Of a stretch of 64,000 nucleotides of DNA, positions 3,075-36,209 are shown piece by piece. How positions within the stretch are numbered: the stretch's first letter is position 1; every line of letters starts with the position of its first letter. Made by a program: the position numbers and the translations under genes. This stretch comes from Sphingobium sp. TKS (GTDB lineage Bacteria > Pseudomonadota > Alphaproteobacteria > Sphingomonadales > Sphingomonadaceae), in NCBI RefSeq assembly GCF_001563265.1, contig NZ_CP005083.1:3475001-3539000 (forward strand), in the 5' to 3' direction. A model generated the notes under the pieces. That model was not told where the DNA came from and did no database searches. It worked only from the letters and a program-made list of their open reading frames with translations.

Positions 3075-3324
3075 CATTTCTGGAATAGTCAGGTTTTCCG
3101 CCAATTTTTGGACGAAATGGAGAGCCACTTCCGCCTTATCCCACGGCAGACCCAAGCGCAGCGGAAATCCGGTTTGGGCGGCTTCCTAGTGAAAGCATTT
3201 TGATAGGAAGCAACGTCGAAATTCGACCTGCGCTATACCTGCGCAAAGCATACGCCCCTACGCTAGAAGATTAATCTCTTTCAGTATATTGGCATGATTC
3301 GGGAGATGAATGGGGGATCATCAG
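3075..3324 (+). other. Conserved left-end noncoding block with three hairpins
   Basis: About 250 nt between the att site and the first gene, closely matched at 28420-28670 in element 2. Three consecutive dyads are seen: CCCAAGC/GTTTGGG (3151-3157 with 3172-3178), GCTTCCTA/TAGGAAGC (3181-3188 with 3204-3211) and GTCGAA/TTCGAC (3215-3227). In element 2 the first stem has A-T in place of the G-T wobble, and the third has a wobble in place of C-G, so pairing is kept while the sequence changes. It may be an mRNA leader, integrase arm sites or an origin. Confidence 0.6.
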
Positions 3325-3723
3325 ATGTTCAAGAAGGTCATGCTTATCTGCCTTGGGTTAGCAACGATTGCTGCACCAGCCCACGCGGAATGGGTAAGCA
3401 TTGGCTCGGCGACGAACGGAACCGAATGGTTCATGGACGCAAACAGAATAAAAACGGTCGGCAGCAAAAAACAAGCGTGGATTCAGTTGGATCATTCACG
3501 AAATAGATCCGTTTCATGGCGACAAACTTTACAACTCATTAGCTTTGATTGCTCTGCCAGTAAGTATAGAACGCTTTCAATCATCGCGTATGATGCATAT
3601 GGAAAAGTTGTTTCTAGTGAAAATTACACAGATTATAGCTATAGTGTCGGATACGATCCTCTCGTTCCCGAAAGCATGGCCGAGTCAGCATCGCTGGTCG
3701 CCTGCGCCTACGGCCAGGAATAA
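3325..3723 (+). CDS. Secreted protein, surface-adhesin E-like domain
   Basis: 132 residues. The signal peptide (MFKKVMLICLGLATIAAPAHA) is cleaved near residue 21. The mature part starts EWVSIGSATNGTEWFMDANR and has a single central cysteine (FDCSASKY) and the YDAYGKVV segment of the Adhesin_E/CNP1-like fold (WxxI...W/Y-D..I...FDC...YD..G). Such proteins sit in the periplasm or on the surface; their role here is unknown. The start was chosen at ATGTTC because TGGGGGAT precedes it. It is the first backbone gene of element 1 and has a close copy at 28671 in element 2. The next gene begins five bases after its stop, so the two are co-expressed. An envelope alteration such as superinfection exclusion is possible but is inference. 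Confidence 0.72.
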   Translation: MFKKVMLICLGLATIAAPAHAEWVSIGSATNGTEWFMDANRIKTVGSKKQAWIQLDHSRNRSVSWRQTLQLISFDCSASKYRTLSIIAYDAYGKVVSSENYTDYSYSVGYDPLVPESMAESASLVACAYGQE

Positions 3724-3728
3724 CATTG

Positions 3729-4883
3729 GTGCTTACGTTCGGAAGAAAGCGATGCCCTCAATGTGCCGAAAAGGTTCGAAATGAGGCGCTGGTTTGTCGC
3801 TATTGCAAGGCTGCCCTTTCCGCTGACGTTAGCCAACATTCGCGAGGAAAGTGGGGTGGCAAGGCTATCATCACCGCATCGGCTCTTGCCTTCGGCTTAG
3901 CGGGCGCTGTTGCCTTAGGGATGTGGTCTGCACCCAAACCCGTCGCCAAGGAGAACACGCCTCGCAAATCTCAAAGGCCAGCCGCCCCGGTTGAAGCACA
4001 ACTCCCCTCCCCTGATCTCGCCCCATTCCCTGTCGACTCTGTCGAATGGCGTGCGGATACGTATCCAACTGCAACTTCATGGCGGTTGGGTCCCATGGTC
4101 GTAACTGCCTCCGCTCGCCAGGAAGGCGAACTCTCCGCGCCGGTCATCGACATCGAATATGCTGGAACCAAAGTCTCTATGGAGGGAGAAATGGTTAGCA
4201 GTTCATATACTCATCGGCTTAGCGCGATCGCCAACCGCGCGGGCGCATATCCCGTCATACTGCTACAAAGCTTCAGCGGCGGCGCACATTGCTGCAATTC
4301 CGTCCAAGTCGCGGGACTTTCTGATGGAAAGCTCAAGGTTGTTAACTTAGGTGCTTGGGACGGCGACCAGATAGAACTGCCAAAAGACATTTCGGGCGAT
4401 GGGTTTGCCGATTACATCTTTTACGATAATAGCTTCCTGTACGCCTTTGCACCTTATGCATATAGCTATGCACCACCGAAAATCCTCAATGTCCGGAACG
4501 GCCGGGCGATAAATGTATCTTCAAGTCGGGCGTTTCGACGCTTGTTCGAGAAAACCTTCCGGGAGACTGAAGGGCTGTGCGATCCCAGCCAAGATAGCTT
4601 CACCCGCAATGGGGCTTGTCCTGCTTTTGTAGCGGCGGCAGCGAAATTGGGGAAGATCGACTGGGCATGGAGCAAGATGGTAGCGTCTTATGATGCTTCG
4701 GCAGACTGGCAGCTACCAACGGGATGCCGGATTCAGACGAACGATCTTTGTCCAGAGAACTTGCAAATTCAGTTCCAAAGCTATCCTGATGCACTTCTAC
4801 ATTTCCTTAAAGAAAATAAATATATAGCTCAGAATTGGTACCCGAAGTCAGATAATGAACTATCTTCGCGCGGGTTTCTCTAA
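3729..4883 (+). CDS. Zinc-ribbon membrane protein with FG-GAP-like ectodomain
   Basis: About 384 residues, with a GTG start at 3729 or TTG at 3726, just after the preceding stop. The N-terminus is a cytosolic zinc ribbon with two CxxC knuckles (CPQC at residues 9-12, CRYC at 23-26). One transmembrane helix follows at about 46-67, then a basic/proline linker, then a large extracytoplasmic domain. That domain contains SGGAHCCNSVQV and a DISGDGFADYIFYDN segment that looks like a calcium-binding FG-GAP/VCBS repeat. Element 2 carries a copy at 29075-30232 that is about four-fifths identical by eye. A cytosolic zinc ribbon joined to an exported sensor-like domain suggests signalling across the membrane, but no function is known. 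Confidence 0.65.
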   Translation: MLTFGRKRCPQCAEKVRNEALVCRYCKAALSADVSQHSRGKWGGKAIITASALAFGLAGAVALGMWSAPKPVAKENTPRKSQRPAAPVEAQLPSPDLAPFPVDSVEWRADTYPTATSWRLGPMVVTASARQEGELSAPVIDIEYAGTKVSMEGEMVSSSYTHRLSAIANRAGAYPVILLQSFSGGAHCCNSVQVAGLSDGKLKVVNLGAWDGDQIELPKDISGDGFADYIFYDNSFLYAFAPYAYSYAPPKILNVRNGRAINVSSSRAFRRLFEKTFRETEGLCDPSQDSFTRNGACPAFVAAAAKLGKIDWAWSKMVASYDASADWQLPTGCRIQTNDLCPENLQIQFQSYPDALLHFLKENKYIAQNWYPKSDNELSSRGFL

Positions 4884-10749: not shown

Positions 10750-11040
10750 ATGGGCGGCTATTTGAAACTCGCTCTCTTTGCCGCCTTGCCTGTATCTGCG
10801 GCATCAGCGCATCCCGGTGGCCTCAACGCTGAAGGATGCCACAACAATCGCAAGACAGGCGATTATCATTGTCACCGCGCGCCCGCCGCACCCGTCCGAC
10901 GACAATCACTCTTGGCAGGCGGTGGTGCATTCCCTAACTGCACTGCCGCTCGGGCTGCGGGGGCAGCGCCGGTCAGGATAGGCGATCCAGGCTACGGCCG
11001 CCATTTGGATCGCGATGGTGACGGAATTGGATGTGAATAA
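10750..11040 (+). CDS. Secreted excalibur-domain protein with HPGG/YHCH motif
   Basis: 96 residues with a signal peptide to about residue 20. Two short cysteine/histidine-rich modules follow. The first is HPGGLNAEGCHNN with GDYHCH, often seen beside secreted nucleases. The second is a C-terminal excalibur motif, FPNCTAARAAGAAPV, ending LDRDGDGIGCE, a DxDxDGxxCE calcium-binding loop usually attached to extracellular SNase-like nucleases. The protein lacks a nuclease domain itself, but both elements encode a thermonuclease-like protein nearby, so a split nuclease/excalibur pair is possible. The stop overlaps the next start (TAATG). Confidence 0.8.
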   Translation: MGGYLKLALFAALPVSAASAHPGGLNAEGCHNNRKTGDYHCHRAPAAPVRRQSLLAGGGAFPNCTAARAAGAAPVRIGDPGYGRHLDRDGDGIGCE

Positions 11041-11240
11041 TGCACCGCCCTACCCGGCATGAACTGGAAGGCGTTTTGCTGGAAAATGGCCTTTATCCCA
11101 TCCTGCGAATGCCCGACGGTGGGGAGTGGCGGCTGGAAATTTTGAAGCGTCATAGGCATTTGTTCGGCACCCGCGTCAAAGTCATCGGCACTCGCGACGG
11201 GTTCGATCTGCTGGCCGTTGATCGGATCGAACCGGCGTGA
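11040..11240 (+). CDS. DUF5818-type small protein
   Basis: 66 residues. It opens MHRPTRHELEGVLLENG and has a beta-rich core with GTRVKVIGTRDGFDLLAV, resembling a small OB-like barrel and matching the DUF5818 group found in sphingomonads. The function is unknown. Its start overlaps the preceding stop (TAATG) and its end overlaps the next start, so it is translationally coupled within the operon. The element 2 copy at 31683 is almost identical. Confidence 0.7.
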   Translation: MHRPTRHELEGVLLENGLYPILRMPDGGEWRLEILKRHRHLFGTRVKVIGTRDGFDLLAVDRIEPA

Positions 11241-11425
11241 CCCGTGATCAGGAGCTGTGGGGCATGGCCTCCATGCTGTTGCGTCAACATGGCGAGCTTG
11301 CCCCATTGAGGGTCGCTGCGCGTATAGGCGAATTGGCTGCCTTGGGCGAAATGAACGGCGTCACCCTCTGGCGAGAGGTTGCCCTGCGCCTGGATGCACT
11401 GATGGCCCAAGCCCACAAGGCCTGA
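11237..11425 (+). CDS. DUF6961-type small helical protein
   Basis: 62 residues, largely helical: MTRDQELWGMASMLLRQHGE, then AARIGELAALGEMNGVTLWREV. This pattern matches the small DUF6961 proteins of sphingomonads, whose role is unknown. The start overlaps the end of the DUF5818 gene by four bases. It is the last gene of the plus-strand operon and faces the thermonuclease gene, with only three bases between the stops. The element 2 copy has a different, longer C-terminus. Confidence 0.62.
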   Translation: MTRDQELWGMASMLLRQHGELAPLRVAARIGELAALGEMNGVTLWREVALRLDALMAQAHKA

Positions 11426-11428
11426 ACC

Positions 11429-11914
11429 TCAGCACCACGGCTCCCGCTGACCTGTCCAGGTTCGGGCCAGCCCTTCGCTTACCAGCACGTCGCCGAGCGA
11501 TTGGCCGCCGCGAGTCAAAACGCGGAGCTTTCGACCATATTTGTCAGCTTCGCGATCCAGCGTGGTCACGGCGAATGGCCCGGCATTGACCAACTCATGA
11601 AGGCGATGGGTCGCCCGAGTCCCAAGGTCAGCTTCGAGCGCGCACCGGGGCGGATGGGTCTCGGGAGCATCTATATCGGCAATGCGGATTTTTTGCCCGT
11701 CGAGCCAGATCGTATCGCCATCGACCACGCAGTTGGTGCCACCGCCTGTATGGCAGAGCGTGAACACGCGAGACACCTCATCCTTGGCGGTCGCGCGATC
11801 AGGCATCGATAAAGAGGCAAGCCCACCGGCGACTCCCAAGATTGCGAGGCTCGCCAGCAGGATAGGCGAACGTGACGCCTTTTTACGACGGCGGAATTTT
11901 ACGACGTTAGACAT
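11429..11914 (-). CDS. Membrane-anchored thermonuclease (SNase)-like protein
   Basis: 161 residues. The N-terminus is very basic (KFRRRKKASR) and is followed by one transmembrane helix (about 18-38), so the domain is exported but tethered. The SNase fold is shown by VDGDTIWLDGQKIRI, then IDAPETHPP (the catalytic Arg/Asp/Glu region), and KYGRKLRV with the second catalytic Arg. The family cuts DNA and RNA with Ca2+. It ends the minus-strand SOS-type operon in element 1, 35 bp after the SRAP gene; in element 2 a different thermonuclease lies on the other side of the LexA box. Confidence 0.82.
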   Translation of the reverse strand: MSNVVKFRRRKKASRSPILLASLAILGVAGGLASLSMPDRATAKDEVSRVFTLCHTGGGTNCVVDGDTIWLDGQKIRIADIDAPETHPPRCALEADLGTRATHRLHELVNAGPFAVTTLDREADKYGRKLRVLTRGGQSLGDVLVSEGLARTWTGQREPWC

Positions 11915-11949
11915 TGCAGCGGCTTAGGACTAAAGCGCCCGTGGGTAAA

Positions 11950-12549
11950 TCACCCATCGCCGAGCGCCATCAACTGACTTGGATAGGCGCAGGCCAGTGA
12001 TAGTGCATCGTCAACGTCAGCGTGCAACCAGCGGTCATAATCTTCCGGGTGGAGGATGACGGGGCAAGCCTTGGGATGGATCGCGCCAACGACGTGCGCA
12101 GCGGGATCGCCCTCATAACCACAAGTGAGGAAGGAATAGACGGGCACCTTTTCTGTCGGTCGCCATATGCCCGAAAAGGCGAAGACCGGCTGGCTGGGGA
12201 CGTTGAACCAGAAGGGCTTTTTCTTCCCCGTGTCGGGCATCGGCTCAACTGACCATTCCTGAAACTCGGTGACGGGCACAAGGCAGCGCCGGGATGGGTT
12301 CGCCAGCGCCGATTTCCAGAACGGGCTGGTATAGTTGCGGACGTTGGTGACGGGCCTGCCCTGAAAAGGAAAGCCCCAGTTCATGGCAGATAGGAGGCGC
12401 TGGCCTTGCTCCTCCCGCACGACGTGACCCGGTTTACCGGGGGCGACATAATCCTTCTCGACCGCGATCTGGTCGGCCGGATCGGGAACCGCACCGAACA
12501 GGCGGGCCATCTCTTCGGCGCTGCTCCGGGCCTTATAGAGATTGCACAT
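11950..12549 (-). CDS. SOS response-associated peptidase (SRAP, YedK/HMCES family)
   Basis: 199 residues starting MCNLY, so the catalytic Cys2 is exposed after Met removal, as needed to form a thiazolidine crosslink to abasic sites in single-stranded DNA. Further family motifs are NVRNYTSPFWKSAL, RRCLVPVTEFQEW (with the active Glu), FAFSGIWRPT and VGAIHPKACPVIL (the HxRMPVIL-type segment). SRAP proteins protect abasic sites during replication and are classically SOS-linked, which fits the LexA box at 13469 upstream of this operon. GAGGGG precedes the ATG. The element 2 copy at 32129 has the same length. Confidence 0.93.
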   Translation of the reverse strand: MCNLYKARSSAEEMARLFGAVPDPADQIAVEKDYVAPGKPGHVVREEQGQRLLSAMNWGFPFQGRPVTNVRNYTSPFWKSALANPSRRCLVPVTEFQEWSVEPMPDTGKKKPFWFNVPSQPVFAFSGIWRPTEKVPVYSFLTCGYEGDPAAHVVGAIHPKACPVILHPEDYDRWLHADVDDALSLACAYPSQLMALGDG

Positions 12550-12558
12550 GATGCCCCT

Positions 12559-12921
12559 CTAATTGAGCTTCGTTCGACTCACTCCCAGCATATCCAGCAA
12601 CTGGTCGCCTGTCGTGTCGTTGCCATTCTGCAAGATGGCCGCAAAGCCACCGATCAGCTTGCCGAAATGCTCTCCAGCCATCCGAATGTCGCGGGGCGTC
12701 TTGTTGGTCTCGTCGGCCGTGATCAGCATGGCAACACCCATGGCTAACGCCTCCGCCAGCATCGGCATGGCGATCGAAGCATGCCCCTCCTTCACCTCGC
12801 GTGAACCCATGGCATAGGTGACAGCCTGAATGGCTACCTGCGCGCAGACATGGCGATATTCGCCCGGCGAAAGATTGTCGGGAATATCGAATAGTTCTTC
12901 GGGGACGGCCTTGTAGCTCAT
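12559..12921 (-). CDS. Conserved backbone protein of the SOS-type operon
   Basis: 120 residues, helical and mildly acidic, with FDIPDNLSPGEYRHVCAQ, an AMGSREVKEGHASIA segment and EHFGKLIGGFAAILQNG. No family is recognised. The element 2 copy (32737-33099) has exactly the same length and differs mostly by conservative changes, so the protein is under selection. It lies nine bases upstream of the SRAP gene and five downstream of the zinc-finger-like gene, and is therefore part of the same transcript. Confidence 0.6.
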   Translation of the reverse strand: MSYKAVPEELFDIPDNLSPGEYRHVCAQVAIQAVTYAMGSREVKEGHASIAMPMLAEALAMGVAMLITADETNKTPRDIRMAGEHFGKLIGGFAAILQNGNDTTGDQLLDMLGVSRTKLN

Positions 12922-12925
12922 TGTC

Positions 12926-13249
12926 CTATCCTCTGAAACGACTCACCGCGCGCTTCCATTCCCGCTCATCGGGCAGGGGAAAGCAATGGCGCGGTGGTTT
13001 GTTGCTTGTTTCAATGATGACCGGACGCACCTTCCGACCGTATCGCTGCGAACACGACTTGCAATAAAAGCGCCGTCGTGCGTCCCTGAAATCATCACTC
13101 CAGCCCATCCGCTGAAATTTCCACCACAGACCATGGGCCTCGAACAGCCCTTCTTGTCGGCATCGGCATTCCACCCTGACGGCATAGTGCCAGGCCGCCG
13201 CCTCGAAGATGCAGGTCGCCACCTTCAGGCCATCCCGATAGCGGGCCAC
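12926..13249 (-). CDS. Conserved backbone protein with cysteine pairs (zinc-binding candidate)
   Basis: 107 residues with a GTG start; the element 2 copy has ATG in the same place. It contains VECRCRQEG and FYCKSCSQRYGRKVRP, giving two C-x-C/C-x2-C pairs about 40 residues apart, which could hold one zinc ion. The remainder is rich in Arg and Trp (LWWKFQRMGWSDDFRDARRRF). This composition suggests nucleic-acid binding. No known family is recognised. It starts three bases after the stop of the upstream 63-residue gene. Confidence 0.6.
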   Translation of the reverse strand: MARYRDGLKVATCIFEAAAWHYAVRVECRCRQEGLFEAHGLWWKFQRMGWSDDFRDARRRFYCKSCSQRYGRKVRPVIIETSNKPPRHCFPLPDEREWKRAVSRFRG

Positions 13250-13252
13250 GGG

Positions 13253-13444
13253 TCACAACAATGAGCCCTGCTCAACCGGCTGGAAGTAGCGGGCTGCGGC
13301 AACGGCATTACGATAGTGGATGGTCTGAAGGCGCTCGGCTTCATCAAACGGCACCGGCGTCCATTCTTCTGACGGATACACCGTGTCGTAAATCGCTCGG
13401 GCGGCACATCGCAGAGGAGTTTGTTGGGGGGTCTGCTTCATCAT
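13253..13444 (-). CDS. First gene of the LexA-box minus-strand operon, 63-residue protein
   Basis: 63 residues. The start was set at 13444 because AGGAAAGG precedes it and because the element 2 copy (33431-33622) aligns exactly from this point with the same length. The product has AIYDTVYPSEEWTPVPFDEA followed by YRNAVAAARYFQPVEQG and is probably helical. No family is recognised. It lies 24 bp from the LexA box and should be the first protein made from this promoter when LexA is cleaved. Confidence 0.62.
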   Translation of the reverse strand: MMKQTPQQTPLRCAARAIYDTVYPSEEWTPVPFDEAERLQTIHYRNAVAAARYFQPVEQGSLL

Positions 13445-13468
13445 CGCAGAATCACCTTTCCTACATGA

Positions 13469-13483
13469 GAACAAATATGGAAC
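13469..13483. promoter_or_regulatory. LexA (SOS) box, alphaproteobacterial type
   Basis: GAACAAATATGGAAC fits GAAC-N7-GAAC exactly, the direct-repeat LexA site of Alphaproteobacteria. It sits in the centre of the 64-bp gap between two divergent starts (13444 minus, 13509 plus), so it must overlap both promoters. The copy at 33647 differs by one base, in the N7 spacer. Confidence 0.82.
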
Positions 13484-13508
13484 ATGCCTCACAGGAAAGG
13501 AGTCGGCA

Positions 13509-13598
13509 ATGGTCATTATCGACGGTGCATTCTTGGTCGGGGTCGCGGCGGTCTTGACGGGCGTGGCGACGCTATGGCGGGCTGTTCGGGGGCGCTGA
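13509..13598 (+). CDS. 29-residue hydrophobic peptide downstream of the LexA box
   Basis: The peptide begins MVIIDGAFLVGVAAVL, continues with a hydrophobic stretch to a Trp, and ends in four basic or polar residues, so it is one transmembrane helix with a positive C-terminal tail. AGGAAAGGAG lies seven bases before the ATG. The element 2 copy at 33687 has the same length, no indels, and mostly synonymous or conservative changes, which shows it is translated. SOS control, 29-residue length and membrane nature recall the TisB toxin of E. coli, although the sequences are unrelated. A holin-like or signalling role is also possible. Confidence 0.68.
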   Translation: MVIIDGAFLVGVAAVLTGVATLWRAVRGR

Positions 13599-13658
13599 TG
13601 ACGACGCCCCATCCCGATGCTCAACATCTCGCCAAAGTTGGGATGGGGCTCGCGTTGC

Positions 13659-13949
13659 TTAGTTCAGGAGGCTGTAACGCCCCGACGAATCTCGCTGCCA
13701 TCGATAGCGGCTTGGATCGCAGCCCGTGGCCTCATTCAATATCATCGCGGCATGAGCGGTGCTGAATCCGAGATGCTTCATCGCACCTATAATTCGCGGG
13801 CGTGTGTTGAGTCCCTCATCAATGCAAGCAGCGATGACAGCAATCGCTTGGTCATGCTTGTTCGCCTCGGTGCCACAGGCCTGGATAAGTCCGCGCAGCC
13901 TGTCGAAAAGTTCGGCATCATGGACGGGCGGATCGATTGCGGTAGTCAT
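13659..13949 (-). CDS. Small winged-helix-like backbone protein, family member 1
   Basis: 96 residues, started at 13949 where GGAAATTAC precedes the ATG. Key segments are EANKHDQAIAVIAACIDEGL, RIIGAMKHLGFSTAHAAMIL and a C-terminal DPSRYRWQRDSSGRYSLL. Two helices followed by a two-strand wing ending G-x-Y-x-L suggest a winged-helix DNA-binding fold. Three other genes in the window share this pattern (16765, 17229 and 34453). It lies between the SOS locus and the integrase and could control excision, but that is inference. Confidence 0.58.
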   Translation of the reverse strand: MTTAIDPPVHDAELFDRLRGLIQACGTEANKHDQAIAVIAACIDEGLNTRPRIIGAMKHLGFSTAHAAMILNEATGCDPSRYRWQRDSSGRYSLLN

Positions 13950-14037
13950 GTAATTTCCTTGGTCGAAAAAATAATAGGAAGTTGCCCCATCCACGCGCCA
14001 GCCGCTTGGGCCAGAACATGGATGGGGTGAGGCCCGG

Positions 14038-15198
14038 TTAGGCCCGATTGAGTTGCATCTTCTTCGCCCCGGCCTCTACGGCGGCCAGCAGCGTATCATG
14101 GGCGAGGTGGCTGTAGCGCATCGTGCTCTTGTGATCGGCATGACCCAGCACCCGCCCAACGGCAAAAAGATCAATGCCCGCGTTGACCATCGCGGAGGCC
14201 GCACTGTGACGCAGATCATGCAACCTCAGCCCCGGCAGCTTCGCTTCATCCCGCGCCGTCTGCCATGCGTGTTTGATCGACACGAAGGGCAGCTTGGTTT
14301 CGGGATTCGGCAGAACATAGGGGCATTTGTCAAAGCGAGGAACCGCTTCCAAGATCGCGATCGCTGGCTGCGACAGTGGAACATGCCGGGCCTTGCCGGT
14401 TTTGGACATGGGGATCAGCCATTGCCGTTTCGCCAGATCGACGTCCCGCCATTGCGCGTGCAGCAGTTCCGACAGCCGTGCGCCGGTCAGTAGCAGCAAT
14501 CCGACGATATGCTTGAGTTGGGGGTTCAGGGAGGCCTCACAGGCCGCCATCAGCCGCTTCGTCTCGGCAGCGTTCAAATAGCGTTCGCGGGCATTGTTGA
14601 TCGGCTTGCGGGGAATGCCCTTGATCGGATTCTTGGTGATGCCGGGCATGTCCCAGCGCAAGGCGAGTTCAAAGGATCGGCTGAATATCACCCTGATCTT
14701 TTCGACGGTCGCGGGAGCAAGCCCCTCCCCTGCCTTCTCAGCCAGCCATTTCGCCACATCCTGTTGCGTGATTTCCGACAGTCGCAGCTTGCCCCAGCGA
14801 GGGGTGATGTGGTTTTCGATGTAGCCCCTGATGGTCGTATAGCTGCGCACATAGGTCTTGGCATGGTCGAGATGCTGCTGGGCGAGCGTCGCATAGGTCG
14901 GCACCGCCCGCTTCTCTTCACGCTTCCCGGCTGGATCACCGCCCAGGACCACCTCTGAACGTAGCCGTTGGGCCTCCTTCCGGGCCTTGTCGAAGCTGAT
15001 GTCACCATAGGCCGCGATCTTGTGCTGCCGCTGGCGACCATGCTCGTCCTGATAGCGCAAATAATAGCTTTTCCCGCCGGAATTTCGGCATTCCAGCACG
15101 AAGCCGGTGATGGCGGTATCGTAATAGTCGGTCTTCTTCTTGCCCGGCCCACACTGAGCGAGCAGAGCAAATTGAGCATCAAGCCGATGTTTCGGCAT
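14038..15198 (-). CDS. Tyrosine integrase of element 1 (P4-integrase type)
   Basis: 386 residues with start at 15198 (AAAAGGACC upstream). The N-terminal DUF4102-like arm-binding domain holds TDYYDTAITGFVLE and YGDISFDKARKEAQRL, then a SAM-like core-binding domain. The catalytic domain has GARLSELLHAQW (Arg), SKTGKARHVPL (Lys), LHDLRHSAASAM (His-x2-Arg) and YSHLA (Tyr nucleophile), all intact. Such enzymes insert elements into tRNA 3' ends, in agreement with the tRNA-Thr halves at both borders. Unusually, the gene lies 11 kb from the left att and 13 kb from the right. Confidence 0.95.
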   Translation of the reverse strand: MPKHRLDAQFALLAQCGPGKKKTDYYDTAITGFVLECRNSGGKSYYLRYQDEHGRQRQHKIAAYGDISFDKARKEAQRLRSEVVLGGDPAGKREEKRAVPTYATLAQQHLDHAKTYVRSYTTIRGYIENHITPRWGKLRLSEITQQDVAKWLAEKAGEGLAPATVEKIRVIFSRSFELALRWDMPGITKNPIKGIPRKPINNARERYLNAAETKRLMAACEASLNPQLKHIVGLLLLTGARLSELLHAQWRDVDLAKRQWLIPMSKTGKARHVPLSQPAIAILEAVPRFDKCPYVLPNPETKLPFVSIKHAWQTARDEAKLPGLRLHDLRHSAASAMVNAGIDLFAVGRVLGHADHKSTMRYSHLAHDTLLAAVEAGAKKMQLNRA

Positions 15199-15493
15199 AA
15201 TAAGGTCCTTTTCGATTTTTGGAGTTTGAGGCACCGCCAGCGCGCGAGAGGCGGCGCGCATGGGTCAGGTCCGGAAATTGGGCGATCGGCGCTCTGGCAT
15301 TACGCAAATCGCCCGGAATGATGCCCCCCACAGCCTCACCTCGCCCCCGACCGGGGCGACGTCACAGCGGATGCCAGAGGACAGCGGGTAGTTGGTGGGG
15401 GCGGGGGCAGCGGATTTTCCCACATTCTATTATAGCTCATTTTATTTCAGCCATTTTTGAGGGTTTCCCCTACCCCTCCCCCCACCGGGCCGG
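15199..15493. other. Integrase-VapE intergenic region with G-rich tract
   Basis: About 295 bp without a gene. A run of G tracts on the plus strand (GGTGGGGGCGGGGGCAGCGG near 15394) is followed by an AT-rich segment (15419-15460). A matching G-rich tract lies in the same place in element 2. It could serve as an origin or terminator; nothing decides this. Confidence 0.4.
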
Positions 15494-16759
15494 TCAGTAT
15501 TCGTCCGGCTGTTTGGTCGTGATCGACTTCATGATCTCGACGGCGTGGCCATGAAGATCGATGAGCGGAACAGTCCATTTTTCGCGGCCCTGGATGCGTT
15601 TGGGCGGCCCCAGCAGTTCCCTGAGCAGAGTACCGCACTCTCGGCATTGGGCATTATTCGGCCGTTCGATGCCCGCGATCTTCAGCATTTCCGTAGCCGT
15701 CAGCTTCTGATTGGACTTGTGGCCCAGCCGGTCCAGGTCGATCCAGGCCATGACCATGTCGTCAACAGCGCTTACGATCTTGTGGCGGCTGTTCCATGCT
15801 TCCAGTTGTGTTTCTTCCGCCTTGGTCAACCACCACTGCCCGCCATCGGCCAATTCGACCGCCAGTTGGGCATAGAGTTGCTGCATGTCGATGCCGTGAT
15901 CCTTCCGTAGCTTCCTTGCCGCGATCGTCCACCAGCGCGTGTTCCCGGTCGGATCGACAAGGAACTTGCAGTCGTTGACGGTTGCGACAAACACGGTCCG
16001 GCGGGGATATTCCGATTCAGCCCGCGCATAGGGTCGTCGGACGCGATCGGAGTCCGAGGTCAGAAACCCCTTCAACCGGGCGATATCCTTGCGGAAGGAA
16101 CTGTCGAGTTCACCGATTTCCACGATCCAGTTCGTCACCGCACCGATGATCGAGTCCTTGTTGCTGCCGTCGAGATGGTGGTCGAGCTTGATCACCGCCT
16201 CCCGGAGCACCGGATCATCGATCAGCGACCGGACCCAACTGGTCTTGTTGATGCCCTGCGGCCCCTGAAGGGTGAGGACACCCCGGCAATGGAACCCGCT
16301 GGGGACCATCACCGCCGCCACTGCGCTGAGCAGCCATTTATGCAGCAGCGTCTCCTTGAGGCTTTCGGGATAGTCCTCTTCGGTCCAGACGGTCGCGTAC
16401 ATTTCGCCCAGCCGGTCCTCTCCATCCCAGGGCTTGCTGTTGATCCAGTCGGCGACCGGATTATAGGCATTCTGGTCAGAAATGGCCTGCACGAATTCCG
16501 GCACGAGTCCGGTTGCAAGTCCATATTGGGCGGCAAGGCTGAGCACCTTGGCCATGGTCACATTGCTGCGATTGTCCGAGGTGCCGCTATGGCCGGGGAT
16601 GATGATTTCATCCTTCTTTTTTATGATGTTGTACCGGGGCACGATGCCAGCGTGGTTCAGAATATGTTCGACGTTGGCGATCGTGGTCGGCGGCTGATTC
16701 TTCATATTGCGGGGCTGGTCGGGAAAGCCCGCCGACACCGCATCTTTGCTATTAAACAT
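15494..16759 (-). CDS. VapE/VirE-like P-loop ATPase of element 1
   Basis: 421 residues of the virulence-associated E family found in phage satellites and prophages, where it acts in replication. Motifs include GVLTLQGPQGINKTSW (Walker A near 160), KLDHHLDGSNKDSI, LDSSFRKDIARLKGFL, RRTVFVATVN (sensor-type strand) and GNTRWWTIAARK. The Walker A lysine is preceded by Asn (GINKT) rather than the usual Gly, which the element 2 copy has (GIGKT). The start is uncertain: Met1 lacks a strong ribosome site. Two small winged-helix-like genes lie directly upstream, five bases away, probably in one operon. Confidence 0.85.
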   Translation of the reverse strand: MFNSKDAVSAGFPDQPRNMKNQPPTTIANVEHILNHAGIVPRYNIIKKKDEIIIPGHSGTSDNRSNVTMAKVLSLAAQYGLATGLVPEFVQAISDQNAYNPVADWINSKPWDGEDRLGEMYATVWTEEDYPESLKETLLHKWLLSAVAAVMVPSGFHCRGVLTLQGPQGINKTSWVRSLIDDPVLREAVIKLDHHLDGSNKDSIIGAVTNWIVEIGELDSSFRKDIARLKGFLTSDSDRVRRPYARAESEYPRRTVFVATVNDCKFLVDPTGNTRWWTIAARKLRKDHGIDMQQLYAQLAVELADGGQWWLTKAEETQLEAWNSRHKIVSAVDDMVMAWIDLDRLGHKSNQKLTATEMLKIAGIERPNNAQCRECGTLLRELLGPPKRIQGREKWTVPLIDLHGHAVEIMKSITTKQPDEY

Positions 16760-16764
16760 TCAAT

Positions 16765-17109
16765 TTATCGCATTCTTCCGGGTTGGTTATACCGCCCGGC
16801 GGACGATCCGGGCACCGAAGGAGCAGACAAAAGGGTTAGGCGGCCATTCCCGTCTTGACGCCAAAGATGCCGCATCAGGTCATCGCCGCAAAGCAAGCCA
16901 AGCATACGTTTCACGGTGACGGGATTTGAAGGCGGCAATTGGTGTGACCGTTCAACAATGCGATCCGCATTCCCTTCTCCGCCGTCGATCAGGGCAAAGG
17001 CGATGGCTACGGAAGCGTCGAGTTTGGACCAGAAGGCAGGCTGCGTTCCCTGGAGTGCTGCCCTACCGAGAGTCAGCAGGCGGCGATGGTCGAATAAATA
17101 ATCAATCAT
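16765..17109 (-). CDS. Small winged-helix-like protein, family member 2
   Basis: About 114 residues from the ATG at 17109 (AAAGGAACTCAC upstream). It shares the core of the gene at 13659: VAIAFALIDGGEGNADRIVE and a C-terminal RHLWRQDGNGRLTLL wing, followed by a 22-residue basic tail. It ends five bases before the VapE start, so it is likely co-transcribed and could regulate replication. There is no clear counterpart beside VapE in element 2. Confidence 0.55.
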   Translation of the reverse strand: MIDYLFDHRRLLTLGRAALQGTQPAFWSKLDASVAIAFALIDGGEGNADRIVERSHQLPPSNPVTVKRMLGLLCGDDLMRHLWRQDGNGRLTLLSAPSVPGSSAGRYNQPGRMR

Positions 17110-19543: not shown

Positions 19544-20779
19544 TTGATGTTGCAATCCGAGCATGAGCTGCTCACCGAGCTCAGAGCCATACTGACAAAC
19601 CAGCGTTACAATCCGACGGTAATCCGAAATCACTGTACCTATGCGCAGGAGTTTCTCGACTATCTCCAGCATCGAGGAATCTGTGTCACGGACGTGACTG
19701 AGGCGCAAGTTGAGCGATATCTGGATTATGCGATCGCGTTATTCCGGAAACGTCGTGGCAGGCATCCCAGCGAGCGCTGGCACGCAGTTCCGCGATCTGC
19801 AATTCACGCGTTGCTACGGCTTGGGCAGGGTCAGTGGCCACCCTCTGAAAAAGTAACATGCGACGCCGATGCGCTGCGGATTACGATCTGCAATGAATAT
19901 GAAACCTGGCTTCGTGAGGAGCGTGGCCTTGCCCAGGCCAGCATCGACGCGTTCCTGTGGGAAGCGCGCTACTTCCTTGCCTGGCAACTCAACCGGTGCG
20001 GGGCCGATGGCCTCGAGGCAGTGACCGTGGGTGAAATTGACAGCTACATGGACTTGCGCGGTTCGAAACTGACGCGCAGTTCTCTGAAATCCACAGCCGA
20101 GCGGCTGCGCTCGTTGCTGCGTTACCTGCATTGGACGGCCCGCGTTGCGGAAGACCTGACACCGCATATCATCGCGCCGCGGCTCTACGCTTACGAAGGG
20201 GTGCCGTCGATTTTGGAGCGCGACCAGATCGCCGCGGTTCTGGCAAGTGTGAGCAAGGACAAGACGGCTGCCGGTTTGCGTGACCACGCGATATTACAGG
20301 TCCTCGCCACCTATGGCCTTCGCGCAAGCGAAGTCCGCAACATGCGGATCGAAGACATAGACTGGCGGGCCGAAGTCATCCGCGTCCGCCACAATAAAAC
20401 GCAAGCCTACACGTTCCTGCCATTGATGGGACCGGTTGGCGAAGCGATCCTCGCCTATCTGCGGTCTGGTCGGCCCGCCACTGATGCCAGGGAACTCTTC
20501 ATCCGAACGCGCGCGCCCTATTGCAAGCTTGAGAAGATATACAGCCTGATTCGGCAGCGGCTCCGGGATGCCGGCGTCAAACCCTCAGGCAGGAGCGGGC
20601 CTCACATCTTCCGTCACGCTCGTGCGACCGAGTTGCTGCGCGCCGCAGTGTCGAAAAAGGTAATCGGTGATCTGTTGGGACATCGCTCCGTTGGATCGAC
20701 GGCGCCCTATCTCAAGCTCGCCACGGAGGATCTGAGAGCCATCGCTCTGGATGTGCCGGGACCGGAGGTGCTGGCATGA
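19544..20779 (+). CDS. RIT tyrosine recombinase A
   Basis: 411 residues. An N-terminal SAM-like core-binding part (RYNPTVIRNHCTYAQEFLDY) is followed by the catalytic domain with TYGLRASEVRNM (Arg), RHNKTQAYTFLPL (Lys-strand), PHIFRHARATELL (His-x2-Arg), LLGHRSV (His/Trp position) and the Tyr in APYLKLA. It is the first of the trio; the stop overlaps the next start by four bases (ATGA), implying translational coupling. Recombinases of this group act together on the element ends. The ribosome site GAGGAGG lies upstream. Confidence 0.93.
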   Translation: MMLQSEHELLTELRAILTNQRYNPTVIRNHCTYAQEFLDYLQHRGICVTDVTEAQVERYLDYAIALFRKRRGRHPSERWHAVPRSAIHALLRLGQGQWPPSEKVTCDADALRITICNEYETWLREERGLAQASIDAFLWEARYFLAWQLNRCGADGLEAVTVGEIDSYMDLRGSKLTRSSLKSTAERLRSLLRYLHWTARVAEDLTPHIIAPRLYAYEGVPSILERDQIAAVLASVSKDKTAAGLRDHAILQVLATYGLRASEVRNMRIEDIDWRAEVIRVRHNKTQAYTFLPLMGPVGEAILAYLRSGRPATDARELFIRTRAPYCKLEKIYSLIRQRLRDAGVKPSGRSGPHIFRHARATELLRAAVSKKVIGDLLGHRSVGSTAPYLKLATEDLRAIALDVPGPEVLA

Positions 20780-22143
20780 CCTCCCGTTGGCCCGATTCCG
20801 ATCGCGCGTGCATTGGCCGCTTTGTCTCAAGCCTTGATCTGCGCAATCCCAAAAGCCGCGTCTGCTATCAACAGGTCCTGCATAGCTTCCAGGATATTGT
20901 CGAACGGCATGGAGCGCTCGATCAGCAAGCCCTGCAGGCCTGGTTGCGCGAATTAGCCACTCGCTGGGCGACATCTACCCTTCTGCATCGCACCCGAATC
21001 ATCGACCGGTTCCTCGATCATCTGCTCGCAACCGGGGGGATCGATCACCACCCGGTCAAAGCTCTACGCGAGGCATGTCATATCAAGCAGTGCATGCCGA
21101 TCTGGCGCGCGCTGATATCGCGTGATCCAGAACAGGCTCTTGCCAGACTGCGCAAGCCCAAACCGTTCGGCAGCGTGCTGGGCGAGGCCATGGCCGAACA
21201 TGTCGCGATGATGCGGCGCAGGGGGTACAAATATACTTCGCAACCCGAGCGGTTCTTGCAGTTCGACCGGTTCCTACAGTTGAATCCGCAACTGGAAACC
21301 GAGCCGCTGAGCGTTATGATCGATCAATGGGCGGCCACAAAGGGCACCCGCAACCATGCATATGAACGCGAAAACCTCGAACGTATCTTCGCAAAAATCC
21401 TACGGCGCCGCGACCCGTCAGTTCCTCGGCGTCGGCCGGATCCGCGACCCCGGAAAGAGGTGCGCAAGCAGTGGCGCCAGCCCCATATTTACTCTCCTGG
21501 TGACGTTCGGCGAATGCTCGACATTGCCCGTTCGTATCCCTCGCCACGCGCAACCCTTCGACCATTGTGCATCTACACCATGCTGTTGCTGGCCTACTGT
21601 GCGGGTCTGCGACGCGGAGAACTGGCCCGGCTGGATCTTGGTGACGTTAATCCCCGAGACGGCACCATCACGGTTCGGCAGACCAAGTTCTTCAAGACCC
21701 GAATCCTGCCGCTCCCCGACAGTGTGATGAACGAGTTGCGGACCTACATCGCAGCCCGACGTCGGGCTGGTGCATCGCAGGATCCGCACTCCGCCCTGTT
21801 CTGGCACGTCCAGGGTAGGTCCCGCTACACGCCCGAAATGATAACCTGGGTGCTTACAGACGTCATACGTCGCGCCGGGTTGAAGCCATTGCAGGGGCAC
21901 GACGGACCTCGCGTTCATGATCTTCGGCACTCGATGGTCGTGAACCGCATCCTTGAATGGTACCGTCTGGGGATCAACCCGCAGGATCGGCTGCCGTTCC
22001 TCGCGACCTACCTCGGACATCGAGATATCAACTCCACGCTGGTCTACATCACCGTTACGCAGGATCTGCTGCATCTCGCGAACGAACGCTTCAGGGCCCT
22101 GGGCGCGCCATGCCTCAATCCTGAACGGGAGGTGCGGCCATGA
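20776..22143 (+). CDS. RIT tyrosine recombinase B
   Basis: 455 residues, the longest of the three. The catalytic motifs are AYCAGLRRGELARL (Arg), RQTKFFKTRILPLP (Lys), PRVHDLRHSMVVNRI (His-x2-Arg), YLGHRDI and the Tyr in TLVYITVT. The middle region has a long basic linker (RRRDPSVPRRRPDPRPRKEV) that may contact DNA. Both ends overlap the neighbouring genes by four bases. The composition is GC-rich, unlike the cargo of the host element, in line with a separate origin. Confidence 0.92.
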   Translation: MTSRWPDSDRACIGRFVSSLDLRNPKSRVCYQQVLHSFQDIVERHGALDQQALQAWLRELATRWATSTLLHRTRIIDRFLDHLLATGGIDHHPVKALREACHIKQCMPIWRALISRDPEQALARLRKPKPFGSVLGEAMAEHVAMMRRRGYKYTSQPERFLQFDRFLQLNPQLETEPLSVMIDQWAATKGTRNHAYERENLERIFAKILRRRDPSVPRRRPDPRPRKEVRKQWRQPHIYSPGDVRRMLDIARSYPSPRATLRPLCIYTMLLLAYCAGLRRGELARLDLGDVNPRDGTITVRQTKFFKTRILPLPDSVMNELRTYIAARRRAGASQDPHSALFWHVQGRSRYTPEMITWVLTDVIRRAGLKPLQGHDGPRVHDLRHSMVVNRILEWYRLGINPQDRLPFLATYLGHRDINSTLVYITVTQDLLHLANERFRALGAPCLNPEREVRP

Positions 22144-23144
22144 GCAGGACCAATCCATTCCCGGAACTGATGCGCGCATTCTTCTACGAATGGCTCGTTG
22201 AGCAGCGCAATGCGTCGGTCAACACGGTCCGTTCCTACCGCGACACTTGGCGGCTCTTCCTCCGGTTCGTCGCTGATCGCGCGGAAAAGAAGGTTGCGAT
22301 GATCTCGCTGGCCGATCTGACTGCCGCGCAGGTCACGGCGTTCCTGAGGCACGCCGAGCACGAGCGCGGTGGTACGATCGGTACCCGCAACTGCCGGCTT
22401 GCTGCAATCCGCAGCTTCTTCAACTTCGTGGCTACCAGGGATCCCGCATCGATCGCGCAATGCGTCGAAATCCTCAACATCCCGATCAAGCGGGCGCCGG
22501 TATCGGAACCCTGCTATCTGGATCCGCCGGAAGTGGCGGCGATCCTTGCCCAGCCAGACCAATCGACCCTAAAAGGCATGCGCGACCATGCGTTGCTCTC
22601 GTTCCTCTACAACAGCGGCGCGCGAATACAGGAAGCGCTCGATGTGTGCCCCGAAGCGATCCGGTTCGATAGTCCCAGTTGCGTCCGACTTATGGGCAAG
22701 GGCCGAAAAGAGCGCATCTGCCCGCTTTGGCCGGAAACCGTACTGTTGCTGGAAAGGCTGCTTGACCGGCAGCCGCGAGCACCAGACCAGCGGCTGTTCG
22801 TTAACCGCTACGGCGAGCCGCTCAGCGCTTCGGGCGTCCGGTTCAAGCTTGCCGCCTATGTGAAGGCGGCGGCTGAAACCATGCCGTCGCTTCAAACAAA
22901 GCACGTAACGCCTCACAGCTTCCGCCACGCGACCGCCGTCCACCTTGTATCGGCGGGCGTGGACATCACGGTCATCCGCAGTTGGCTTGGACATGTGAGT
23001 CTCGACACCACCAATCACTATGCCAAGGCCAATCTGGAAACGAAGCGGAAGGCGCTGGAGCAGGTCGCCGTGCCGTCGGCGACGGGGCGTTCACCATCCT
23101 GGAAACGCGATACGAGCCTGCTCGCCTGGCTTGATACGCTGTAA
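22140..23144 (+). CDS. RIT tyrosine recombinase C
   Basis: 334 residues, close to XerC/D in length. It has NSGARIQEALDV (Arg), LMGKGRKERICPL (Lys), TPHSFRHATAVHLV (His-x2-Arg), SWLGHVSL and the Tyr in TTNHYAKANL. It ends 55 bp before the right inverted repeat. The trio order A-B-C, with short overlaps, is the diagnostic RIT arrangement. The function of having three recombinases is still unclear in this element class. Confidence 0.93.
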   Translation: MSRTNPFPELMRAFFYEWLVEQRNASVNTVRSYRDTWRLFLRFVADRAEKKVAMISLADLTAAQVTAFLRHAEHERGGTIGTRNCRLAAIRSFFNFVATRDPASIAQCVEILNIPIKRAPVSEPCYLDPPEVAAILAQPDQSTLKGMRDHALLSFLYNSGARIQEALDVCPEAIRFDSPSCVRLMGKGRKERICPLWPETVLLLERLLDRQPRAPDQRLFVNRYGEPLSASGVRFKLAAYVKAAAETMPSLQTKHVTPHSFRHATAVHLVSAGVDITVIRSWLGHVSLDTTNHYAKANLETKRKALEQVAVPSATGRSPSWKRDTSLLAWLDTL

Positions 23145-28419: not shown

Positions 28420-28670
28420 GATTCTACAAATAGCTAGGTTTTCTGCCGATTTTCGGATCAAAGCGGGCGGTATTTTCCCATTGTCCCACGGCAGACCCAA
28501 ACGCAGCGGAAGTCCGGTTTGGGCCGCTTCCTATTGAAGGCATTTTGGTAGGAAGCGATGTTGAAATTCGACCTGCGCTATACCTGCAAGCCCCGGCATT
28601 AGCCTCACGCTAGAAGATTAATCTTATTCAGTATATTGGCGTGATTCGGGAGATGAACGGGGGTCATCAA
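28420..28670 (+). other. Conserved left-end noncoding block of element 2
   Basis: This is the counterpart of 3075-3324. It keeps the dyads CCCAAAC/GTTTGGG (28496-28502 with 28517-28523) and GCTTCCTA/TAGGAAGC (28526-28533 with 28549-28556). Confidence 0.6.
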
Positions 28671-29069
28671 ATGTTTAAGAAGGTCATGCTTACCTGCATC
28701 GGATTGGGGGCGATTGCTTCACCGGCACACGCGGAATGGGTGAGCATCGGCTCAGCGACGAACGGAACCGAATGGTTCATGGATTGGAACAGAATTAAAA
28801 CGGTAGGCAACAAAAAGCAGGCGTGGATACAGTTAAATCACTCTCGAAATCGGTCCGTTTCATGGCGACAAACGTTACAATTGGTTAGCTTCGATTGCTC
28901 TGCTGCAAAGTATAGGACTCTTTCCATCATCGCCTACGATGCATATGGAAAAGTTGTTTCTAGCGAAAATTACAACGATTATAGTTACGGCGTCGGGTAC
29001 GATCCTCTCGTTCCAGAAAGCATGGCCGAGTCAGCATCGCAGGTCGCTTGCGCCTTTGGTCAGGAATAA
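28671..29069 (+). CDS. Secreted protein, surface-adhesin E-like domain (element 2 copy)
   Basis: 132 residues, the same length as the element 1 copy at 3325. The signal peptide is MFKKVMLTCIGLGAIASPAHA; the mature protein has the same EWVSIGSATNGTEWFMDWNR, FDCSAAKYRTLSIIAYD and YGKVVSS blocks. Differences are scattered and mostly conservative, so both copies look functional. GGGGG lies before the chosen ATG. It is followed after five bases by the zinc-ribbon gene. Role unknown; an exported, satellite-encoded protein may modify the host envelope. Confidence 0.72.
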   Translation: MFKKVMLTCIGLGAIASPAHAEWVSIGSATNGTEWFMDWNRIKTVGNKKQAWIQLNHSRNRSVSWRQTLQLVSFDCSAAKYRTLSIIAYDAYGKVVSSENYNDYSYGVGYDPLVPESMAESASQVACAFGQE

Positions 29070-29074
29070 CTTTA

Positions 29075-30232
29075 GTGTTGACCTTCGGAAGAAAGCGGTG
29101 CCCTCAGTGTGCCGAATGGGTTCGAAATGAGGCGCTGATTTGTCGCTATTGCAAGTCTTCTCTCACGGTTGGCGTTCACCAGCATCCGCGAGGAAAATGG
29201 GGCAGCAAGGCGGTCATCATTGGCTCGGTCCTCACCCTATGCTTAGCGGGAGCTGTTGCCTTAGGGATGTGGTCTGCGCCCAAGCCTGTTGCAAAAGAAA
29301 ACCTGTCTCGCAAACCGCAAAGGTCAGCCGCTCCGGTGAAGGCACAGCTTGCCGCCCTTAACCTCACCGCATTTCCTATCGACTCAGGCGTCGAATGGCG
29401 CGCAGATAGCTATCCAAGCCCAATCTCATGGCAGTTAGGCCCCATGGTCGTGACTGCCTCCGTTCGTCGGGACGGCGAACTCTCCGCACCCCACATCGAA
29501 ATCGAAGCTGCTGGTACCAAAATCTCGATGCAGGGAGAAATGGTTAGCAGTTCATACACTCATCGGCTTAGCGCAATCATAAACCGAGCGGGCGCATATC
29601 CCGTTCTAATGCTGCAAAGCTTCAGCGGTGGCGCGCATTGCTGCAATTCAGTCCAAGTGGCGGGACTTTCTGGCGGCAAACTCAAGGTGGTCAATCTCGG
29701 CGCTTGGGATGGCGACCAAATAGGGCTGCCAAAAGACGTTTCGGGCGACGGCTTTGCTGATTACGTTTTTTACGACAACAGCTTCCTCTACGCCTTTGCA
29801 CCTTATGCATATAGCTACGCGCCACCAAAAATCCTCAACGTGCGGAACGGCCGAGCAATAAATGTGTCATCAAGCCGGGCGTTTCGACGCTTTTTCGAGA
29901 AAACTATTCGGGAGACCGAGGGGCTGTGCGATCCTAGCCAAGATAGCTTCACCCGCAATGGGGCTTGCCCTGCTTTTGTGGCAGCCGCAGCGAGATTGGG
30001 GAAGATCGACCAAGCGTGGAGCAGGATGGTAGCATCCTATGATGCCGCGGCAGACTGGCAGTTACCCACGGGCTGCCGGATTAAAACCCGTGATTCATGT
30101 CCTGAGAATTTGCAGATCCAATTTCAAAGCTACCCTGATGCACTTCTCAGTTTCCTCAAAGACAATGGGTATGTAGCGCAAAACTGGTATCCAAGATCGG
30201 GCGTGAACCTATCCGAACCTGCGCTATTCTAA
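29075..30232 (+). CDS. Zinc-ribbon membrane protein with FG-GAP-like ectodomain (element 2 copy)
   Basis: About 385 residues from a GTG just after the preceding stop. It has the same plan as 3729-4883: CPQC and CRYC zinc ribbon, one helix (VIIGSVLTLCLAGAVALGMW), a proline/basic linker, and an outer domain with SGGAHCCNSVQV and DVSGDGFADYVFYDN. The outer domain is kept better than the linker, which suggests that this part carries the function. It is the last gene before slot A in element 2. Confidence 0.65.
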   Translation: MLTFGRKRCPQCAEWVRNEALICRYCKSSLTVGVHQHPRGKWGSKAVIIGSVLTLCLAGAVALGMWSAPKPVAKENLSRKPQRSAAPVKAQLAALNLTAFPIDSGVEWRADSYPSPISWQLGPMVVTASVRRDGELSAPHIEIEAAGTKISMQGEMVSSSYTHRLSAIINRAGAYPVLMLQSFSGGAHCCNSVQVAGLSGGKLKVVNLGAWDGDQIGLPKDVSGDGFADYVFYDNSFLYAFAPYAYSYAPPKILNVRNGRAINVSSSRAFRRFFEKTIRETEGLCDPSQDSFTRNGACPAFVAAAARLGKIDQAWSRMVASYDAAADWQLPTGCRIKTRDSCPENLQIQFQSYPDALLSFLKDNGYVAQNWYPRSGVNLSEPALF

Positions 30233-33622: not shown

Positions 33623-33646
33623 CGCAGAATCACCTTTCCTACATGA

Positions 33647-33661
33647 GAACAAATGTGGAAC
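33647..33661. promoter_or_regulatory. LexA (SOS) box, element 2 copy
   Basis: GAACAAATGTGGAAC, again GAAC-N7-GAAC. It is centred between divergent starts at 33622 and 33687. Over 71 nt (33620-33690 against 13442-13512) the two elements differ at one base, inside the spacer. Confidence 0.82.
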
Positions 33662-33686: not shown

Positions 33687-33776
33687 ATGGTGATTATCGA
33701 TGGGTCGTTCTTGATGGGCGTCGCGGCCGTGCTCACGAGCGTGGCCACTCTTTGGAAGGCGCTGCGGCGACGTTAA
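33687..33776 (+). CDS. 29-residue hydrophobic peptide (element 2 copy)
   Basis: It begins MVIIDGSFLMGVAAVL, continues through a hydrophobic stretch to a Trp, and ends in Arg residues. Same length and frame as the element 1 peptide; most base changes are in third positions. The AGGAAAGGAG ribosome site is identical. In this element a thermonuclease gene follows 69 bp downstream on the same strand and could share the SOS promoter. Confidence 0.68.
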   Translation: MVIIDGSFLMGVAAVLTSVATLWKALRRR

Positions 33777-36128: not shown

Positions 36129-36209
36129 CCCATAAAGAAAAATATGATTGGGGGATTGCCCCCGCCCACGCACCAGCCGCAAGGCCAGCACATGGACAGG
36201 AGGAAAGTT

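Follow-up and report, generated by a model that had tools for sequence, protein, structure and literature searches.

The window, that is, the whole stretch of 64,000 nucleotides that was analysed, contains two copies of a small gene for a micropeptide. Copy 1, MVIIDGAFLVGVAAVLTGVATLWRAVRGR, has 29 residues and is read on the forward strand at 13509-13598, from ATG to TGA. Copy 2 lies in a second element at 33687-33776 on the same strand; it also has 29 residues and is 79% identical to copy 1. The element around each copy also encodes a tyrosine integrase and a VapE-like protein. The features of the two loci are listed below, and those given without a family or other source were read directly from the sequence.

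11429-11914, reverse strand: staphylococcal-nuclease-like protein (PF00565, E 2.6e-9)
11950-12549, reverse strand: SRAP, SOS response associated peptidase (PF02586, E 5.1e-22)
12559-12921, reverse strand: ORF of 120 residues in the divergent gene row, no Pfam family
12926-13249, reverse strand: ORF of 107 residues in the divergent gene row, no Pfam family
13253-13444, reverse strand: divergent ORF of 63 residues, no Pfam family; its promoter would share the operator
13457-13464, forward strand: TTTCCTAC element, conserved in the family
13469-13483, unstranded: LexA operator GAACAAATATGGAAC; the same motif stands before lexA and ImuA-like genes of the genome
13493-13502, forward strand: presumed ribosome-binding site AGGAAAGGAG
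13500-13504, unstranded: GANTC (CcrM-type) site GAGTC, overlapping the ribosome-binding site
13509-13598, forward strand: 29-residue membrane micropeptide, copy 1, element 1 (frame, selection, family profile)
14038-15201, reverse strand: tyrosine integrase of element 1 (PF00589)
15494-16759, reverse strand: VapE-like helicase/primase of element 1 (PF05272)
33635-33642, forward strand: TTTCCTAC element of copy 2
33647-33661, unstranded: LexA operator GAACAAATGTGGAAC of copy 2
33687-33776, forward strand: 29-residue membrane micropeptide, copy 2, element 2

The SRAP gene beside copy 1 has its like beside copy 2 in element 2. When eight proteins of the window were scanned with PADLOC, only the staphylococcal-nuclease-like (SNase-like) protein gave a match, and it was weak. 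Elsewhere in the window, three overlapping recombinase-like ORFs (411, 455 and 334 aa) are arranged in a row at 19544-23144, and by eye we take this trio to resemble the 'recombinase in trio' element. The ORF at 35031-36191, which separates the peptide of element 2 from the integrase there, is presumably an IS110-like transposase, also judged by eye. A closely similar two-gene block can be seen twice in the ORF list, at 3310-4883 and 28641-30232.

The two copies differ at 24 bases, distributed over the three codon positions as 7/1/16. Sixteen of the changes are synonymous and eight are non-synonymous, giving dN 0.14 and dS 1.57 (NG86). Across 12 pairs of family members the pooled pN/pS is 0.14. 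The coding frame is under strong purifying selection. The first-pass annotation had proposed the same frame, with equal length in both elements and changes concentrated in third positions; all of this was confirmed. It had also named homologues with frameshifts or stop codons as a sign against a peptide. Such copies are present, but few: one has no start and a stop after 23 codons (L015), two have a broken frame (L184 and L197), and L192/L416 is shortened by five residues. L196 is truncated only because its locus ends there. Broken copies are perhaps under-counted, since a profile search favours intact ones. A third DNA match in the own genome (L003, 28 bp) lies within unrelated sequence and was taken as chance.

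Relatives of the micropeptide are concentrated in one bacterial family. With copy 2 as the query, matches at E <= 0.1 were obtained in 13 of 199 genomes of the GTDB family Sphingomonadaceae. At least 88 of 397 genomes of this family matched a 13-row profile at E <= 0.05, and at least 77 of the 397 matched a 90-row profile at E <= 0.01. Within the genus Sphingobium, where all candidates were scored, the 90-row profile matched 25 of 94 genomes at E <= 0.001. In a class sample of 385 genomes, convincing matches came only from the window's genome and one family member, G091; these two were also the clear ones among the 19 genomes matched there by the 13-row profile at E <= 0.05. Matches of the 90-row profile in six further genomes of the class sample at E <= 0.01 (best 6.4e-4) were partial and mostly inside long frames, and they were rejected as noise. 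The 90-row alignment (A3) omits L015, L126, L158, L184, L197, identical rows and sites lacking the peptide.

The family core is approximately M-x-x-[LI]-D-x-x-x-[LIV]-x-[AG]-[LIV]-A-A-x-x-[TS]-[SA]-x-[SA]-x-L-[VIW]-x-x-x-R-[RG]-[KR], with 28-30 residues and a C-terminus that is often RRKP. Tailed members, some of them from Sphingobium and Blastomonas, reach 83 residues, and tails containing Cys, some with CxxC, follow the core in L018, L040, L042, L043, L045 and L092. Charged residues (D/E/K/R/H) occur at positions 8-22 in only 2 of the 90 members, 81 have an acidic residue at position 5, and 84 have a tail with a net charge of +2 or more. The earlier description of a hydrophobic peptide with a basic tail is borne out by these counts. 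Between positions 7 and 23 small residues gather on one helix face (permutation moment, P 0.0076), and large hydrophobic residues on the opposite face (P 0.0056), a result that is not independent of the first. Overall conservation has no one-sided face (moment P 0.85). The micropeptide is very probably a membrane peptide, its predicted location following from composition, and by the positive-inside rule the C-terminus would lie on the cytoplasmic side.

As in other SOS-induced membrane micropeptides, there is a short coding frame with one hydrophobic helix, as judged from selection and composition, and a LexA operator at the promoter. It can be held with near certainty that these genes form an SOS-regulated membrane peptide family. 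Scans of the 90 members against Pfam and NCBIfam gave only weak matches (best E 3.7e-4 and 8.2e-5, respectively), the scores shown being below the curated cut-offs; those in NCBIfam included GPS-CTERM in 10 of the 90 (best E 8.2e-5) and LPXTG_anchor in 8, again under the cut-off in the scores shown. Solved structures gave no match at E <= 1, and PHROGs gave none for either window peptide, the best value for member L153 being E 0.08. No SOS micropeptide family of sphingomonads was listed in a literature search that covered few subscription papers. The kind of peptide is known, but the sequence family is new, and its promoter is unusual and nearly gene-specific.

The promoter of copy 1 contains an exact alphaproteobacterial operator, GAACN7GAAC, which ends 25 bases before the ATG, so that the LexA box earlier noted at this distance is verified. 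The Caulobacter SOS box is described as GTTCN7GTTC (PMC12700426, PMC9578287), and GAACN7GAAC is the same box read from the other strand. In the window's genome the motif also stands 18 bases ahead of lexA itself (L349; TIGR00498, 172 bits vs a cut-off of 111) and precedes two ImuA-like genes (L345 and L347, both matches under the NCBIfam cut-off). Its position before lexA and these two genes supports its role as an operator in this genome. By itself the motif is not rare, with 98 + 96 genome matches vs 59 + 52 in the reversed control. The longer motif TTTCCTACN4GAACA occurs exactly in this genome only at the two peptide promoters, and with up to two mismatches it shows no enrichment there (22 + 15 vs 35 + 26 in the reversed control). 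From the start of the divergent gene to the ATG of the peptide, the two elements differ by one change in 72 columns, and the flanking coding stretches are more divergent.

No sigma-70 consensus was found in 13200-13700; that TTTCCT serves as a -35 element is an unproved idea. A possible leader hairpin is formed by CCTTTCCT and AGGAAAGG at 13455-13462 and 13493-13500. The hairpin could mask the ribosome-binding site were the transcript to start upstream; its left arm may also be the ribosome-binding site of the divergent gene. Checked by eye, the hairpin does not recur in loci of the RRKP type, and their ribosome-binding sites differ. Taken together, SOS control of the micropeptide is as well supported as sequence permits.

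Across the family this promoter has a recognisable signature. An exact LexA operator lies within 75 bp upstream of the start in 54 of 74 family loci vs 2 of 455 control genes, TCCTAC lies at -70 to -36 in 65 of 74 vs 0 of 455, and GANTC lies in the last 30 bases before the start in 54 of 74 vs 23 of 455, where the controls are long frames from 40 locus stretches and the 74 loci are related, hence not independent. The count leaves out L012 and L013 (weak, no box seen) and five duplicates, and keeps the broken L015 as well as L126, which is without promoter features; weaker matches of the 13-row profile (mostly from E of about 2e-4, plus G648) are outside the locus set. Both TCCTAC and the LexA operator keep a near-fixed distance to the start codon. 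In eight loci the operator is on the far side of TCCTAC, in the GTTCN7GTTC orientation. Twenty loci have no exact operator, and nine of them carry an inverted variant, NAACC-N5-GGT(T/A)N, which may be a LexA site. It is the same half-site inverted with the spacing kept (L016, L020, L056, L094, L102, L109, L122, L124 and L131). As for the methylation site, 30 of the 54 GANTC sites could belong to a GGAGTC ribosome-binding site and 24 could not. Twelve loci of the genus search outside the 90-row alignment, one with a poor frame (L415), have the exact LexA operator in 7, TCCTAC in 7 and GANTC in 9.

In the reverse direction, genomes of 84,980 species were scanned with the promoter pattern TTTCCTACN{3,4}GAACAN6GAACA without use of the peptide. 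Since the pattern derives from promoters of the family, and several genomes in the scan had been seen before, the scan tests specificity rather than independence. The scan gave 55 sites, and a family peptide comes after 46 of them; three of these peptides are broken (L184, L192 and L197) and one (L158) is three residues short. Strain Chol11, a Novosphingobium, is one sphingomonad with copies. We take 48 of the 55 sites to lie in Sphingomonadales, all 46 peptide-bearing sites among them. Two sphingomonad sites without the peptide, L152 and L190, have another small protein instead, 31 and 23 bases further on and 110 and 122 residues long, and at the remaining seven sites no peptide was found. 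The promoter signature is nearly, though not wholly, specific for the peptide. The TTTCCTAC element in practice nearly tags a single gene, and suggests a regulator or class of promoter not yet described.

Some neighbouring observations were made in these searches. In the window's own genome, a 64-residue ORF (L343, 620-848) stands behind a LexA box and adjoins a divergent S24-type gene. By eye, the proteins of L152, L190 and L343, of 64-122 residues, are alike. A Bradyrhizobium record (L187) has the full TTTCCTAC and LexA signature and no recognisable peptide.

A survey of the genomic surroundings took in 40 further stretches, chiefly around RRKP-type loci, reaching about 9 kb to each side unless the contig ended sooner. 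By tblastn with few seeds, SNase-like genes were present in at least 11 (one of the two SNase seeds, the neighbour of copy 2, having no SNase match in Pfam), DUF6961 in at least 9, Excalibur in at least 8, serine recombinases in at least 7 and SRAP in at least 3; any recombinase, relaxase or VapE gene was present in at least 10. Excalibur, DUF6961, SNase-like and SRAP genes recur near the peptide at 10750-12549 of the window and in the surveyed loci, on elements and chromosomes. A relative is encoded on two plasmid records whose gene table, itself incomplete, shows nothing at the position of the match. On a Blastomonas plasmid that typing assigns to the mobilizable class, the peptide gene is directly followed by one for a thermonuclease. 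The picture is one of accessory DNA that belongs to a single bacterial family and resides on chromosomes, plasmids and integrative elements. The host group consists mostly of environmental bacteria. The suggestion in the first-pass annotation of a satellite-borne gene fits the two window elements with their integrase and VapE-like genes, but the family extends far beyond satellites.

The reading favoured here is that of a LexA-repressed, single-helix micropeptide of the inner membrane that acts on a membrane partner, most likely the divisome; its probability is put at roughly 0.4. DNA damage would lead to cleavage of LexA and derepression of the micropeptide, which would insert so that D5 faces outward and the basic tail lies on the inner side. 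Small residues arranged in a strip (7, 11, 14, 18, 21 and 25; also 13, 17 and 20) would pack against a transmembrane helix of the partner, for which the late division machinery, FtsW/FtsI/FtsN, is the likeliest candidate. Septation would then be halted during DNA repair and an excised element kept safe from loss, comparable to the action of SidA on division in Caulobacter. Because the helix is uncharged with a packing face, and no RNA antitoxin is visible, a protein partner is favoured over a pore; such a one-sided face would suit a partner better than a charged pore. The division-inhibitor step is in itself tentative. The GANTC sites, and the presence of GcrA in the window's genome, give a hint of cell-cycle input.

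Several points run counter to this reading, however. Patchy presence (25/94 in the genus, at least 77/397 in the family) would be unexpected in a core checkpoint, and would fit an accessory or selfish gene equally. Conservation lacks the one-sided face, and the faces of size and hydrophobicity express the same fact twice. GANTC sites lie partly within the ribosome-binding site, and the neighbours (nuclease, Excalibur, DUF6961, SRAP) do not indicate division. A wider version of the proposal, which we regard as improbable, is a transferable division checkpoint: integrative elements and plasmids of sphingomonads would carry their own SOS micropeptide under a dedicated promoter (TTTCCTAC, LexA operator and CcrM methylation site), and division of the host would pause, in coordination with methylation of the chromosome, for as long as excision, replication or transfer of the element and repair of DNA are under way. 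Its small size makes the family amenable to complete genetics, which would allow a test of how peptides of 30 residues locate their targets in the membrane.

Action in the manner of TisB or DinQ, where an SOS-induced peptide perturbs or depolarises the membrane and causes growth arrest or persistence, is an alternative that we consider unlikely yet still credible. The size class, the LexA operator, the hydrophobic composition with its basic tail and the accessory distribution all agree with it, and the TisB-like logic of the first-pass annotation stands as far as size, LexA control and hydrophobicity are concerned, but TisB is not supported as the model for the family. The helix of TisB is charged, whereas the core of the present family is uncharged in 88 of 90 members, and an RNA antitoxin was not seen. 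The assumed leader and frame are no more stably folded than shuffled sequences (z -0.12 and 0.32, with an assumed transcript start), no Rfam match at E <= 0.1 was found at 11000-17000, and no type I toxin family models were listed for the 90 members in the Pfam and NCBIfam scans. The ribosome-binding site is partly paired in predicted folds, and some translational control, or an antisense RNA of an undescribed kind, may exist.

It is also rather improbable that the micropeptide regulates a membrane protein other than the divisome, such as a transporter, protease, sensor kinase, or conjugation or DNA-uptake apparatus. The small-residue packing face would serve such a partner as well, the tails are variable and Cys-rich in several members, and SNase-like, DUF6961 and Excalibur genes are recurrent neighbours; each neighbour, however, is found in a minority of loci and on either strand.

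That the micropeptide serves phage satellites as a holin or in lysis, or releases a neighbouring secreted nuclease by the logic of colicin operons, is very unlikely. In favour are the VapE-like and integrase genes of both window elements and the thermonuclease gene on the Blastomonas plasmid; in addition, 15 of the 90 members match Phage_holin_10 (PF23987) weakly at E <= 0.1, the best with E 3.7e-4 and 20.9 bits. Among 10 members scanned alone, however, seven matched this model with a best score of 20.9 bits vs a cut-off of 27; copy 2 as the query had no match in 50,697 phage records; the peptide was present in none of 81 viral loci fetched by a looser promoter pattern; and a recombinase, relaxase or VapE gene within about 9 kb was seen in at least 10 of 40 loci. 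The holin-like peptide suggested earlier is disfavoured by the phage records, the viral loci and the sub-cut-off scores. That a conserved promoter or RNA carries the frame by chance can be dismissed almost entirely: the two elements do agree more closely in the promoter block than in the frame, but selection on the frame (pN/pS 0.14), the single common frame that aligns 90 differing sequences and the small number of broken copies seen speak against a chance frame.

The LexA-controlled micropeptide with a membrane partner can be compared with several known systems. Phage_holin_10 shares the order of a helix and then a basic tail, and differs in that the family scores seen are below its curated cut-off and the family is absent from the phage records searched. 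YneA of B. subtilis and SosA of S. aureus are larger proteins with extracytoplasmic parts. Both are described as SOS-induced division inhibitors (PMC13396833, PMC6851548). DinQ of E. coli is described as an SOS-regulated single-transmembrane peptide (PMC3567139), but it has the antisense RNAs agrA/agrB, and the family libraries indicate no relation. TisB of E. coli, described as a pore-forming hydrophobic membrane peptide held by IstR-1 RNA, likewise has 29 residues and LexA control (PMC8309996). Unlike that pair, no antisense RNA or inhibitory leader was found at the window peptide, its operator is of a different type and the helix of its family is uncharged.

SidA of Caulobacter crescentus appears to be a nearer functional analogue than TisB, and is favoured as such because the bacterial class and the operator are shared. 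It is described as an SOS-induced peptide of 29 residues in the inner membrane that interacts with FtsW and FtsN (PMC4211646), and as the primary SOS division inhibitor of Caulobacter. The window peptide likewise has 29 residues, SOS-type control by a GTTCN7GTTC-type operator and a predicted place in the membrane, a likeness of size, control and location as described. Unlike SidA, the sphingomonad family is accessory, patchy and partly on mobile DNA, with a promoter of TTTCCTAC and GANTC. If division is indeed blocked by the peptide, the strategy of SidA would recur in sequences without known relation, and could travel on mobile DNA.
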